Below are positions 870 through 5,049 of a stretch of DNA of 33,559 bases, in pieces. Every line of letters starts with the position of its first letter. Within the stretch, counting starts at the first letter, position 1. The DNA is taken from contig JAFZRH010000030.1 of assembly GCA_017619975.1 (NCBI GenBank), forward strand, positions 1-33,559, given 5' to 3'. The position numbers were made by a program, and so were the translations under genes. The notes under the pieces are model-generated. The model did not search any database and was not told where the DNA came from. It saw nothing but the letters and a program-made list of their open reading frames with translations. The stretch comes from Lachnospiraceae bacterium. GTDB lineage: Bacteria > Bacillota > Clostridia > Lachnospirales > Lachnospiraceae.

Positions 870-1427
870 ATGAACCCGAAAGAAATGCTGGAAGCGCTGG
901 CCGGGCGGGATGAATCCGTCCTGACGCAGATCGCTTCGCGCTACGGTCCCTACGTCCGAAAGACCGCTTTTCGGATCCTCCGCGATGAAGAAGACGTACG
1001 TGAGGTGGAAAACGACGTCTGGCTGAAGCTGTGGCATGGCGAGGTCCCCGAAGATCCGGAAGAGCTGAAGGCACGGCTGGGACTGTACAGCCGTCAGCTG
1101 GCGATCGACCGCCTGCGGATAAATAGCGCCGCGCGCAGAGGCAGGGGCGAATACGCGCTTGCGCTGGAAGAGCTGGAGGATGCCCTTCCGGATCCCTCAC
1201 AGCAGGATCCGGCGGACCGGCTGGCCTTAAAGGAAGCCATGAGCCGTTTCCTGAAAGGCCTGCCAAAGCGCGACCGACAGCTGTTTGTCTGCCGCTACTG
1301 GTACGGCCTCAGCGTGAAAGAATGTGCCGAAGCGTTTTCCCTGGGAGAGAGCGCCGTCAAGGCCGCGCTGCTCCGGATCCGCAAGAAGCTGAAACAGCAG
1401 CTCGAAAAAGAGGAGATACCGATATGA
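870..1427 (+). CDS. RNA polymerase ECF-family sigma-70 factor
   Basis: This 185-residue alternative sigma factor carries the ECF layout of regions 2 and 4 only. Region 2 spans about residues 20-90 (RYGPYVRKTAFRIL, then DVWLKLW). Region 4 spans about 125-178 and ends in a helix-turn-helix (LSVKECAEAFSLGESAVKAAL). The start was set at 870 because GGAAGGAG lies seven bases upstream; an in-frame non-ATG start at 825 has no such site. The stop overlaps the next gene's start in an ATGA, so the two proteins are translationally coupled. The partner is a membrane protein with an anti-sigma-like N-terminus fused to a serpin. An ECF-like promoter upstream suggests self-activation. Target genes elsewhere are unknown. 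Confidence 0.92.
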   Translation: MNPKEMLEALAGRDESVLTQIASRYGPYVRKTAFRILRDEEDVREVENDVWLKLWHGEVPEDPEELKARLGLYSRQLAIDRLRINSAARRGRGEYALALEELEDALPDPSQQDPADRLALKEAMSRFLKGLPKRDRQLFVCRYWYGLSVKECAEAFSLGESAVKAALLRIRKKLKQQLEKEEIPI

Positions 1428-2956
1428 CGAAGGAAGATCTGAAAAAAGCGATCCTTGATACAGAAGACGAATGGATTGAAGAGGCTCTGCCGAAAGGTTT
1501 CGGAAAGACGAGAAAAGTTCGCTCCCGCTGGTTTCGTCCGGCGCTGGCTGCAGCTGCGTGTGTCCTGATTGCGGTTCTGGGCCTGCTGCTTTTGCCGAGA
1601 CGCCCGGATCCCAATACAGAAAGAGCAACAGACAAAAGCATTTTGGAGCAGCTGATTGAAAACATTACGCCTGTCGCGCATGCGTTTGCGCTGGCGGAGG
1701 CGGAATATCCGGATTCTGCGATAGACAGCAGCCTATATCCGAGAACCTGGAAGGAAATGACGGAAAAATATGCCGAAATAGAAGCAAAATATATGGAGGC
1801 GCACCAAAAGGATCAGCAGGAATTCGCTCAGGTGAGAGGAAACGGAGAAAGTCTGAAACCGTTTCTGCAGCAGGCGATCCGCCTCTCCCTTGAGAATGCG
1901 GACGGGAAAAACGCTCTTTCAGCACCTCTCAATCTGTATTTCGGACTCGCCATGCTGGCGGAAAGCACAGCCGGTGAAACAAGACAGGAGATCCTGGATG
2001 CGATCGGAGCCGGAAGCTTGGAAGCGCTTCGGGAGCAGGCCGGAAAGGTCTGGCGGGCCAATTACTACGACGACGGGAACGTCAAAAGCATTCTGGGCAG
2101 CTCTCTCTGGCTGTCAGATTCGCTTTCCTATAACAAAAACACGGTAAAGCAGATCAGCGAATCGTACTATGCCTCGGTTTTCCGGGGAGAGATGGGTACA
2201 GAAGAATATAATGAAGTGCTGCGGCAGTGGATTAACGCGCAGACGGGCTCTCTGTTGGAAGAACTCACCGCTCAGCTGTCCATGGTTCCGCAGACCGTGC
2301 TGGAACTCGTCAGCACGGTGTACTTCCAGGACCGGTGGGATGCCGAGTTTTCAAAAGAAAACAATCGGGACGGCATTTTTCACGGCGCGGCGCAGGAGAC
2401 TGCCGTGACGTTCATGAATCAGACGGACTGGTACGGTGTTTACTATTACGGGGAGCATTTCGGCGCATACGCCAAAAGGATGAGATCCTCCGATGCGGTG
2501 ATGTATTTCATCCTGCCGGATGAAGGCGTCAGCATGGAGGAACTGCTGACTGACGAAGATCTGCAGGCGTTCCTGACGTCAGACAAAGCGGTTCCGAACG
2601 TAACGATCAAGGTCAATTTTTCACTGCCGAAGTTCGATATCATGATGGATCAGGATCTCTCGAATGCAGTGAAAGCGCTCGGAATTCAGAAAGTTTTCGA
2701 CCCTCAGCTTGCGGATTTCAGCAGCGTGACCGGAAAGGCGGATGCTGCCGCCTGGCTCTCGGAAGTGAGGCAGGGCGCCCGGATCATGGTGGACGAGGAA
2801 GGCGTAAAGGCCGCGGCCTATTTGCGCATCGTTGCTCCCGGTGCTCCGATGCCGCCCGAGGAAGAGATCGACTTTGTCCTGGACCGGCCGTTCCTTTTCG
2901 TGCTGCGCAGCCGGGACGATCTGCCCCTGCTGGCCGGGATCGTGAACCAGCCGTAG
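1424..2956 (+). CDS. Membrane-anchored serpin with anti-sigma-like N-terminus
   Basis: This 510-residue protein has three parts. Residues 1-36 are cytoplasmic and resemble the short acidic N-terminus (ILDTEDEWIEEALP) followed by a basic stretch seen in many clostridial ECF-linked anti-sigma factors. Residues 37-58 form one membrane segment. Residues 60-135 are a hydrophilic linker, and about 135-510 form a full-length serpin domain outside the cell. The serpin hinge reads DEEGVKAAAY (457-466), followed by a Pro/Ala-rich reactive loop (APGAPMPP) and the conserved DRPFLF near the end. Serpins trap serine or cysteine proteases by loop insertion after cleavage. The hinge keeps E-E-G and three Ala but has Val at P14 and Tyr at P9, so true inhibition is uncertain. 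The ATGA overlap with the ECF sigma gene supports a sensor/anti-sigma role, which is inference. Confidence 0.88.
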   Translation: MTKEDLKKAILDTEDEWIEEALPKGFGKTRKVRSRWFRPALAAAACVLIAVLGLLLLPRRPDPNTERATDKSILEQLIENITPVAHAFALAEAEYPDSAIDSSLYPRTWKEMTEKYAEIEAKYMEAHQKDQQEFAQVRGNGESLKPFLQQAIRLSLENADGKNALSAPLNLYFGLAMLAESTAGETRQEILDAIGAGSLEALREQAGKVWRANYYDDGNVKSILGSSLWLSDSLSYNKNTVKQISESYYASVFRGEMGTEEYNEVLRQWINAQTGSLLEELTAQLSMVPQTVLELVSTVYFQDRWDAEFSKENNRDGIFHGAAQETAVTFMNQTDWYGVYYYGEHFGAYAKRMRSSDAVMYFILPDEGVSMEELLTDEDLQAFLTSDKAVPNVTIKVNFSLPKFDIMMDQDLSNAVKALGIQKVFDPQLADFSSVTGKADAAAWLSEVRQGARIMVDEEGVKAAAYLRIVAPGAPMPPEEEIDFVLDRPFLFVLRSRDDLPLLAGIVNQP

Positions 2957-2970
2957 ACTGAAGGCGAAGC

Positions 2971-3018
2971 GGAAGAGTTCCTTATTCTCCTGCATGAGGA
3001 GGGGAGCTCTTCCTTTTT
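2971..3018 (+). terminator. Rho-independent terminator after the serpin gene
   Basis: An outer 11-bp stem (2971-2981 with 3003-3013, one G-T wobble) encloses a second small stem (2987-2991 with 2997-3001) and is followed by TTTTT (3014-3018). It closes the sigma/serpin operon 15 bases after its stop codon. Confidence 0.8.
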
Positions 3019-3019
3019 A

Positions 3020-3048
3020 TTGACTTTTTCCAATTTTCATCGTAAGAT
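3020..3048 (+). promoter_or_regulatory. Sigma-A promoter for the DUF805/radical SAM pair
   Basis: TTGACT (3020-3025), a 17-base spacer and TAAGAT (3043-3048) form a good vegetative promoter just after the serpin terminator and about 100 bases before the DUF805 start. The pair downstream is therefore likely its own transcription unit. Confidence 0.65.
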
Positions 3049-3151: not shown

Positions 3152-3895
3152 ATGGAGAAAATAAGCTTCGGAAAAACATATATGGATTTCTGGAAGAGAT
3201 CCTTTGACTACAAAGGGACTTCTGATCGGCGTGAATTCTGGCTGCCGATCGGCCTGCATATCGCTCTGACGGCCGCGGCGATCGTTTTGTGGCTGATCTG
3301 CCGGGACAATGATGACCTGAACTGGCTCAGCATCCCTTTCTGGATCCTTCTTGTTTTTCTCTTTGTGACTCTTATTCCTTTTGTTGCCGTAACGGTCCGG
3401 CGTCTTCGCGATACGGGCCTCTCCGGGCTGTGGGCTTTCCTTCTTCTCTTTGTCGGGGCAGGCACCTTTGTCGTCCTGGCACTCTGTGCCGGCAGCAGCG
3501 GCTTTTATCCCGGAAACAACCGGCCTGTGAACGTCTATGGCCCGCCGCCCTGGTATGATGTGACAACGGTACCGGAGCCGCTGTACGGCACACCAGCCTG
3601 GGACGAAACGGATCCCGCCGAAAAGACGCCGGCTTTCGACCCGTCCCAGAACGAGCCGGTCGACGTGTACGGTCCGCCCGAATGGTTCGGCACGAAGGAT
3701 ACGGAAGATCCCGCCGTGGAGACGCCGGATTTTGATCCCGCCAACAACGAACCGGTTGCCGTGTACGGCCCGCCCGAATGGTTTGAAAACTCGAAAGAGG
3801 GTTCCGCGGAAGATACGGCACCCTTCGATCCGTCCCGCAATACCGATGCTCCGCTTTACGGTCCGCCCGAATGGTTTACTCAATCGGACAAATAA
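3152..3895 (+). CDS. DUF805 membrane protein with C-terminal YGPPEWF repeats
   Basis: This is a 247-residue protein. Residues 1-115 are a DUF805-type integral membrane domain: the early SFDYKGTSDRREFW, hydrophobic segments near 33-50, 61-82 and 92-113, and VRRLRDTGLSG before the last one. DUF805 has no established biochemical role. Residues 118-247 are a hydrophilic tail unlike ordinary DUF805 proteins. It carries copies of FDPxxNEPVxVYGPPEWF at 118-135, 162-179, 194-211 and 225-242, plus a short variant PLYGTPAW (143-150). The start at 3152 is chosen because AAAGGAGG lies just upstream; an in-frame start at 3092 lacks a ribosome site. A radical SAM/SPASM gene begins 15 bases downstream, so the tail may be that enzyme's substrate (inference). 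Confidence 0.88.
   Translation: MEKISFGKTYMDFWKRSFDYKGTSDRREFWLPIGLHIALTAAAIVLWLICRDNDDLNWLSIPFWILLVFLFVTLIPFVAVTVRRLRDTGLSGLWAFLLLFVGAGTFVVLALCAGSSGFYPGNNRPVNVYGPPPWYDVTTVPEPLYGTPAWDETDPAEKTPAFDPSQNEPVDVYGPPEWFGTKDTEDPAVETPDFDPANNEPVAVYGPPEWFENSKEGSAEDTAPFDPSRNTDAPLYGPPEWFTQSDK
3636..3880 (+). repeat. Tandem coding repeats for FDPxxNEPVxVYGPPEWF
   Basis: Three near-identical blocks encode this 18-residue unit. The shared CCGCCCGAATGGTT occurs at 3674, 3770 and 3863, a spacing of 96 and 93 bases (32 and 31 codons). A more diverged first copy lies about 3503-3556. The spacers between units are acidic and poorly conserved, while the aromatic and proline positions are kept. Confidence 0.85.
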
Positions 3896-3910
3896 GCGGA
3901 TTCCGAGAAG

Positions 3911-5020
3911 ATGAATAAAAAAACAGAAACAATCAGCAATTCCGGTCTGACGGAGCGGCAGAAGACCGTGCATCTCCGCCGGCTGGCCGAATACCGTGAT
4001 CTGGAGCTGCGGCCTTCGCCGCGGCTTCACACGCTGTTTATCGAAATGACGGAAAAGTGCAACGAGCACTGCCGTCACTGCGGGTCCTGGTGCGGGGACT
4101 ACAAAGAAAAGCACCCGACCACGACGGCGGAGATCAAGGGCTTTCTGGACCAGATCAAACAAGATTTTGACGTGAAGGAGATCCGACTGTGCATTACCGG
4201 CGGCGAACCGCTGCTACGGCCGGATTTTTTTGAAATCGTATATTACGCGAAATCGTTGGGCTTTGGCTGGGGCATGACCTCCAACGGCACGCTGATCACG
4301 CCGGAGGTCGCGAAAAAGCTTTATCTGGCCGGTATGCGCACAGTCTCGATCAGTGTGGACGGCTTAAAGGAAACGCACGAATGGTTTCGTCAGGCGCCGC
4401 GCTACGACGCGACCATTCAGGGCGTGAAAAACCTTCTGGCATATCCCTTCGATCACGTGCAGATCACGACGGTCGTGCACGGGCGGAACATCAACGAGCT
4501 GGAAGAGATGTATCAGCAGTTTTCCGCTCTGGGCATCCGTTCCTGGCGCGTGATCAATATCGAACCGATGGGCCGTGCGAAGGATCAGCCGGAGCTGCTC
4601 CTGACCCCCGACCAACTAAAACAGATGTTTTCTTTTATCCGCGAGAAGCGGAATGCCGGCCCGATGGAAGTCACCTACGGCTGCAGTCACTACCTGGGCA
4701 CGGAATTTGAGCGGGAGCTGCGTCCGTGGTATTTTATTTGCGGTGCGGGAGTCTATACGGCATCCATGACCGCGGGCGGTGACTTTGTCAGCTGCCTGGA
4801 CCTGGAGCGCCGGCCGGAGCTCGTGGAAGGGAACGTGCGCACGGATCGCTTTAAAGACGTCTGGGAGAAGAAGTACCGCATCTTCCGCACAGACTGGCGG
4901 AAGGTCGGAAAATGCGCCGAATGCGAGCATTACCGTTTCTGCGCGGGCGATTCCTTCCACAGCTGGGATTTCGATAAGATGGAGCCGATCCTTTGCTTAA
5001 AAGGGATCCTGTTCGAATAG
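3911..5020 (+). CDS. Radical SAM/SPASM-domain peptide-maturase-like enzyme
   Basis: This 369-residue enzyme has an N-terminal radical SAM core with CxxxCxxC at C50, C54 and C57 (an extra C61 follows), ITGGEPLLRPDFF as the SAM-binding GGE motif, and a C-terminal SPASM domain. The SPASM cysteines are C277, C295, C335, C338, C344 and C362 (CxxC-x5-C spacing), which should bind auxiliary iron-sulfur clusters. SPASM enzymes usually modify peptides, for example by crosslinking side chains. The motif around the cluster (RCHCGSWC-like) and the late HSWDF resemble, from memory, radical SAM proteins paired with YGxP-containing lipoproteins in Bacteroidetes. It follows the YGPPEWF-repeat DUF805 gene by 15 bases. 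The ribosome site is weak (CCGAGAAG), fitting translation coupled to the upstream gene. The substrate assignment is inference. Confidence 0.88.
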   Translation: MNKKTETISNSGLTERQKTVHLRRLAEYRDLELRPSPRLHTLFIEMTEKCNEHCRHCGSWCGDYKEKHPTTTAEIKGFLDQIKQDFDVKEIRLCITGGEPLLRPDFFEIVYYAKSLGFGWGMTSNGTLITPEVAKKLYLAGMRTVSISVDGLKETHEWFRQAPRYDATIQGVKNLLAYPFDHVQITTVVHGRNINELEEMYQQFSALGIRSWRVINIEPMGRAKDQPELLLTPDQLKQMFSFIREKRNAGPMEVTYGCSHYLGTEFERELRPWYFICGAGVYTASMTAGGDFVSCLDLERRPELVEGNVRTDRFKDVWEKKYRIFRTDWRKVGKCAECEHYRFCAGDSFHSWDFDKMEPILCLKGILFE

Positions 5021-5049
5021 TGCCAAAGGGGACGGTTCCTTTTGGCACT
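5019..5049. repeat. REP-like palindrome containing GGGGACGGTTCC
   Basis: A 31-base inverted repeat begins AGTGCCAAA and ends TTTGGCACT, and pairs along nearly its whole length with two G-T wobbles. Its first bases form the stop codon of the radical SAM gene. The core GGGGACGGTTCC flanked by TGCCAAA/TTTGGCA is, from memory, a palindrome scattered in many clostridial genomes and associated with REP-type (Y1-transposase-linked) elements. No transposase is in this window. As RNA it would form a hairpin but lacks a T-tract. Confidence 0.6.

Follow-up and report, generated by a model that had tools for sequence, protein, structure and literature searches.

The stretch of DNA analysed in this study, hereafter the window, is a contig of 33,559 nucleotides (C40) from the 2.1 Mb genome of a Lachnospiraceae bacterium. 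It was observed that a gene for a DUF805 membrane protein, whose tail carries repeated Tyr-Gly motifs, is followed by a gene for a radical SAM/SPASM enzyme, and that the two stand downstream of genes for an ECF sigma factor and a serpin, as listed here:

870..1427, + strand: ECF sigma factor, context gene (PF07638, E 1.9e-12)
1424..2956, + strand: serpin with an N-terminal hydrophobic segment, context gene (PF00079, E 4.4e-54)
2996..3015, + strand: terminator-like site downstream of the serpin ORF (consensus match only)
3152..3895, + strand: DUF805 membrane protein, proposed substrate (ORF of 247 aa)
3203..3490, + strand: DUF805 domain (residues 18-113, PF05656)
3533..3541, + strand: X-Tyr-Gly site 1, VYG in VYGPPPWY, Tyr codon at 3536, degenerate
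3581..3589, + strand: X-Tyr-Gly site 2, LYG in LYGTPAW, Tyr codon at 3584, degenerate
3665..3673, + strand: X-Tyr-Gly site 3, VYGPPEWF, Tyr codon at 3668, full repeat copy
3761..3769, + strand: X-Tyr-Gly site 4, VYGPPEWF, Tyr codon at 3764, full repeat copy
3854..3862, + strand: X-Tyr-Gly site 5, LYGPPEWF in FDPSRNTDAPLYGPPEWF, Tyr codon at 3857, divergent third copy
3911..5020, + strand: radical SAM/SPASM enzyme, proposed tail modifier (PF04055, PF13186, TIGR04133 at 283 bits)

Terminator-like sites were more numerous in this region than in shuffled sequences (11 vs 5.0), and the promoter-like site at 3020-3048 was no more than chance would give (1 found against 1.9 expected). The ORF at 3152-3895 belongs to DUF805 (PF05656, 57.3 bits at E 2.6e-15, the cut-off being 25.7 bits) and has three hydrophobic segments (residues 31-49, 64-82 and 95-113), followed by a tail of 134 residues, of which 26 are acidic and 6 basic. 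By positive-inside reasoning, which puts the positive loops inside, this tail would lie outside the cell. The structural model of the protein is poor (pLDDT 56) and displays three long helices with a disordered tail after them. Five X-Tyr-Gly sites were found in the tail, three of them within YGPPEWF, and a DNA repeat finder detected a 77-nt repeat in three copies in the same region. The DUF805 domain with a repeat tail, as originally predicted, was therefore recovered, whereas the predicted four copies of FDPxxNEPVxVYGPPEWF resolve into two full copies, one divergent copy and two degenerate sites.

The coordinates also bear out that 15 bases separate the DUF805 gene from the SPASM radical SAM gene, which lies downstream on the same strand. 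A CxxxCxxC motif together with SPASM cysteines is the signature of the radical SAM/SPASM superfamily, and the enzyme at 3911-5020 belongs to it by its cysteines and by its Pfam domains (PF04055, E 6.8e-25; PF13186, E 6.1e-7; both above cut-off). The radical SAM cysteines C50, C54 and C57 are invariant among 23 sequences, as are C277-X12-G-X4-C295, C335-X2-C338-X5-C344 and C362; the enzyme has six of the seven SPASM cysteines, because the X3-Cys position is Ser348. The model of the enzyme reached a pLDDT of 90.3, and the nearest solved folds are those of the RiPP enzymes SkfB and SuiB. A perfect inverted repeat, GTGCCAAAGG...CCTTTTGGCAC (5020-5048), is situated at the enzyme's stop codon; it occurs once in the window and is perhaps a terminator or a REP-like element.

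With reference to the curated families, TIGR04133 is the best NCBIfam model for the enzyme at 283.1 bits, under its cut-off of 425, and TIGR04103 gave 111.4 bits against a cut-off of 725. The closest named relative, from a congeneric Lachnospiraceae MAG (L004), has an enzyme 71% identical. A tree of 46 rows was built, excluding L032 and L015 (from the same genome as L004, with an identical enzyme) and with the L030 enzyme cut to 400 residues. The window enzyme falls inside a TIGR04133-like clade of 28 rows that holds accepted members (support 100/99), and the TIGR04133 cut-off is passed by L012 (607.9 bits) and L013 (451.4 bits). The sister of this clade is a TIGR04103/TIGR03913 group of seven rows (98/94), in which L084 and L086 are labelled by annotation, L085 by its DUF1843 neighbours, and L078, L014 and L052 by best matches of 221-245 bits, under the cut-off of 725; L087 has no label. 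Outside these joined groups are MftC, TIGR04053, TIGR04347, NirJ, AhbD-like, PqqE and two Paenibacillus rows, with long branches for PqqE and TIGR04053, and a 41-row tree agrees with the larger one.

The relatives carried by plasmids of Phocaeicola, Parabacteroides and Treponema adjoin TIGR04134 lipoproteins with CEYGTP, CEYGSP and CYGMP near the lipobox, so that the earlier remark on YGxP lipoproteins linked to radical SAM enzymes in Bacteroidetes is confirmed by partners reading EYGTP, EYGSP and CYGMP. The Bacteroidota and Treponema partners match TIGR04134, and the window partner gave no match to it at E 10. We class the gene pair as a variant form of the TIGR04133/TIGR04134 radical SAM/lipoprotein systems. 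It shares with those of Bacteroidota and Treponema the best-scoring family, the clade and an adjacent YGxP partner; in contrast to them, its enzyme scores under the curated cut-off, its partner is a DUF805 protein instead of a TIGR04134 lipoprotein, and it displays five repeated sites where they have one, just after the lipobox.

The enzyme was detected at E 1e-60 in 18 of the 299 genomes of the window's family. Together with L047-L050 and the partial L051 from a scan of the order, and with L005-L007, L011-L013 and L073, these gave 30 distinct loci; L008, L014, L052 and L074-L077 were left out of the family loci, L051 was entered as a miss, and the enzyme of L031 is cut by a contig end. L047-L050 come from four genomes of one genus and hence are not independent. 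A same-strand ORF with the XYG motif adjoins the enzyme in 26 of the 30 loci. These partners are lipoproteins in 18 loci (lipobox called by script or by eye), zinc-ribbon proteins in four (L024, L027, L031 and L073, of which L027 alone is above the Pfam cut-off and the others were recognised by cysteine pairs), DUF805 proteins in three (window, L004 and L006), and, in L007, a small membrane protein whose sole motif is KYGVYEP. Twenty-four partner ORFs, with 3,300 residues in all, contain 54 YGPP, and the remaining ORFs of the same loci (564 with 60 aa or more, all frames, 84,846 residues) contain none. This is a background rate and not a test, since the partners had been chosen by the motif.

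The 30 loci were also screened for loss of the repeats where the enzyme is kept, which would speak against the pairing, and four have no adjacent motif protein. In G120 the motif sits on a DUF805 protein of another contig, unlinked to the enzyme; in G041 and G189 the enzyme is damaged as well; and L051, which has one in-frame TGA, is a miss, with no YGxP protein seen beside its enzyme. The related enzyme fragment of L051 (1501-2130) comes from a different family of the same order. As originally predicted, and as comparative genomics supports, the adjacent enzyme very probably acts on the tail. The pair is a real, recurrent enzyme-substrate arrangement, present in the window in a derived form that has a membrane protein as its proposed substrate.

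Several side observations accompany these loci. The zinc-ribbon-like partners (L024 2588-2890, L027 2570-2959, L031 937-1305 and L073 1497-2477) carry the YG motif between cysteine pairs and have no evident signal peptide, and WXG100-like ORFs, recognised by eye, adjoin the enzyme/zinc-ribbon pair at L027 620-1257. At L030 (1333-3295) the enzyme has 525 aa with a C-terminal extension, and a small YYGCP lipoprotein lies on either side of it. A phylum-wide search with TIGR04133 at the strict limit of E 1e-70 detected 2 of 398 genomes, both from the window's family. In viral contigs the Bacteroidota enzyme profile found no match, and the window profile found L073 at 53% plus four weak matches; L073 is probably chromosomal, since it carries ORFs that resemble phenylalanyl-tRNA synthetase subunits by eye. 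Weak matches were also recorded in 15 phage records.

Regarding the scaffold, a DUF805-tail profile matched in 19 of the 299 family genomes, and the match in G007 is a YGPP lipoprotein. Repeat tails occur in three of the 18 DUF805 genomes (window, G120 and G238, the last being the same genome as that of L004, from the window's genus), and all three carry the enzyme. None of the other 15 has a repeat tail; 14 of these lack the enzyme, and G200 has the enzyme with a lipoprotein partner. The window protein therefore resembles the DUF805 family (PF05656) in its domain, above the Pfam cut-off, and departs from it in its tail, which 15 of 15 other DUF805 proteins of the family genomes do not have. 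The enzymes paired with DUF805 proteins group in a single clade (96/87) nested in a group with mostly lipoprotein partners, so that DUF805 appears to have come in later as a replacement scaffold. The earlier remark that a membrane protein would be an unusual substrate is apt, DUF805 being the unusual scaffold among the partners.

It could be argued that the tail is not modified at all, YGPP being a structural or binding repeat grown from a C-terminal motif of DUF805 while the enzyme acts elsewhere. Three of the 15 repeat-less DUF805 proteins end in NQYGPNP or NEYGPNP, so that the scaffold can own a YGP motif, possibly the seed of the repeat, and in G120 the gene for the DUF805 tail lies apart from that of the enzyme. 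We nevertheless consider this reading unlikely, as the same repeat is found on lipoproteins and zinc-ribbon proteins adjoining the enzyme, and in none of the 14 DUF805 proteins whose genomes do not encode the enzyme. A DUF805 expansion with an incidental enzyme was likewise disfavoured, the genomes with repeats all carrying the enzyme.

For detailed enquiry into the motif, we counted 69 sites in 27 partner proteins, where a site needed YG plus Pro at +2 or +3 and the partners of L073, L007, L023 and L032 were left aside. The residue before Tyr is Val in 47 sites, Leu in 6 and Ile in 5, and Pro stands at +2 in 62 of 69 and at +3 in 64 of 69. Because these sites had been selected by YG, a reverse check was made through GPP and Y-x-PP: in 24 partners, Tyr precedes 57 of 57 GPP, and Gly is held in 57 of 57 Y-x-PP. 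Comparatively, EWF is found in 14 of the 69 sites. Judged from the aligned motifs, the constrained element is Tyr-Gly and not the aromatic pair after it, and of the suggested targets in each repeat, Tyr, fixed with its Gly, is supported, and Trp and Phe are not. A cross-link among the three residues, with a change of -2 Da, agrees with the well kept YGPPEWF in three DUF805 partners (window, L004 and L006). It is nonetheless very improbable, since the G120 DUF805 protein reads YGPPEM and, of the 27 partner proteins, 22 lack a Trp close to any of their sites. Cross-linking at Trp and Phe was rejected as the main reading on this pattern of conservation.

Enzyme and motif have also decayed together in the two loci with damaged enzymes, L023 and L032. 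The L023 enzyme (1074-2532) is an apparent pseudo-enzyme that lacks the CxxxCxxC segment and is altered in IEPxGRA, with the seven invariant C-terminal cysteines retained. Its neighbour ends in NINQPRSGPPEMAG, so that the repeat is recognisable without its Tyr, SGPP standing in place of YGPP. In L032 the partner has GGLYAPPPDF and the enzyme frame is broken, a break that could stem from misassembly. Among the 18 family genomes, 16 have an intact enzyme and motif (15 adjacent, one unlinked) and two have both damaged (Fisher p 0.0065), a parallel that rests on two cases, which are few.

The small proteins of the sister group give a hint of the chemistry. One of three nif11 precursors of Nostoc (L084, TIGR04103 group) ends in ALYGLPPELF, to be compared with AVYGPPEWF in the window, and one of three small proteins beside the L078 enzyme has TAYGIARPG. 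Small proteins beside L014 and L052 carry VMYGTGVRM and PHYGVNDW, respectively, and no same-strand YG peptide was found beside the L087 enzyme. An N-terminal YG is displayed by two of three DUF1843 peptides of Azospirillum (L086 546-1246; MLYGGAM and KPYGVAI) and by one of three in L085 (2159-2872; QPYGAGI), so TIGR03913-type enzymes may also be X-Tyr-Gly related. The TIGR03913/DUF1843 systems, although in the sister group, are unlike the window in having small peptides without Pro-Pro and without a membrane scaffold.

We take IPR026482 to be TIGR04103, which would put PlpX in the TIGR04103 family. PlpX has been placed in IPR026482 and, helped by PlpY, cuts tyramine out of X-Tyr-Gly (PMC11002830). 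The natural sites of PlpXY are MYG and LYG, with no need for a leader and with action also inside proteins, and the system is choosy, with 2 of 16 listed FtsZ tag insertions modified; the authors count 27 characterised and 939 predicted systems (PMC10533398). Inhibition of proteases by spliced products is described in two further papers (PMC11117315; PMC10373908). The window shares with PlpXY of Pleurocapsa a SPASM radical SAM enzyme, an X-Tyr-Gly substrate with several sites (five in the window), and an aliphatic residue before Tyr. It differs from PlpXY in an enzyme far under the TIGR04103 cut-off, in the absence of a PlpY-like gene by eye among the ORFs neighbouring the enzyme and of a nif11/NHLP leader gene beside it, and in its predicted substrates, which are membrane proteins, lipoproteins or zinc-ribbon proteins. 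The lone PqqD-family protein of the window's genome (L088, G000:C62:21445-21651) is unlinked to the enzyme, and no radical SAM gene was seen in the 3.2 kb around it.

Because the repeat protein adjoins a relative of tyrosine-excising enzymes, its tail is probably rewritten chemically, and our preferred reading, at a probability of roughly 0.6, is that it would be modified by tyramine excision at X-Tyr-Gly, with a change of -135.07 Da per site. Even within a single clade, radical SAM enzymes may catalyse different reactions. The reading is weakened because only some sister-group peptides carry YG, because the enzyme misses the TIGR04103 and even the TIGR04133 cut-off, because neither a PlpY-like gene nor a nif11/NHLP leader adjoins and the PqqD-type protein is unlinked, and because PlpXY is choosy and the enzyme must get to a C-terminal tail outside the membrane before that tail is translocated. 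Another change at the motif Tyr, such as a cross-link to a neighbour, epimerisation or another bond within Tyr-Gly-Pro, is a tentative alternative. SPASM enzymes perform many peptide reactions, the nearest solved folds (SkfB and SuiB) belong to RiPP enzymes with a chemistry other than splicing, and known splice sites keep their prolines less strictly than the YGPP of these partners does. Speaking against this alternative, only Gly and the next Pro are constant enough to serve as the partner, EWF being so infrequent, and Pro at +3 is also found in PlpXY tags (LYGLP) and in the Nostoc precursor. Between the mass changes, -135 Da is likelier than -2 Da, and a mass test for -2 Da would miss it.

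For tyramine excision, the enzyme would recognise X-Tyr-Gly-(Pro/x)-Pro repeats along the partner's unfolded tail while this is still in the cytoplasm, binding the acidic repeat unit, and presumably without a leader or helper protein. The backbone would be rewritten at each Tyr-Gly, with tyramine lost and alpha-keto-beta-amino acids left, so that the window protein would bear up to five electrophilic ketoamides on a membrane-anchored tail. Lipoprotein partners could be modified before export, and the DUF805 tail would have to be reached before it crosses the membrane. We infer a modified tail outside the cell, with a role that might be, for example, surface-bound protease inhibition; this could not be the role of every member, since the zinc-ribbon partners have no evident signal peptide.

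The neighbourhood touches on the same theme. The ECF sigma and serpin genes overlap by 4 bases both in the window and in L004 (1141-1698 and 1695-3134, the sigma factor there identified by eye), and the serpin, which has a weak NCBIfam anti-sigma match (E 0.013), may be an anti-sigma factor or a protease sensor. Eight serpin matches were found in the window's genome. Serpins occur in 13 of 18 enzyme-bearing genomes against 24 of 62 others, the first ones in the list (p 0.016, uncorrected for relatedness), and among the loci examined a serpin adjoins the gene pair only in the window and its congener. This association fits a protease-defence theme as weak evidence. Speculatively, and doubtfully, the DUF805 protein spliced at five sites (seven in L006) would be a surface-anchored array of alpha-ketoamide warheads that traps proteases at the cell envelope, encoded next to an ECF sigma/membrane-serpin switch and built by a splicing module that moved between unrelated scaffolds.

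In the open-licence literature, nothing on TIGR04133 or YGPP partners was found among the matches listed. Scott et al. (Chem, 2022) reportedly described the splicing of proteins already. As peptide and protein splicing have been reported before, the novelty lies in the variant with a membrane-protein substrate. The X-Tyr-Gly substrate shared with the splicease group gives a precise mass prediction for all radical SAM/lipoprotein pairs. On the speculative reading above, backbone splicing would be a general way to arm proteins, beyond peptide natural products, because the module would have moved among lipoprotein, zinc-ribbon and DUF805 scaffolds. If the mass prediction is borne out, anaerobic bacteria bear reactive ketoamides on their envelope proteins, a change that lies outside routine proteomics.
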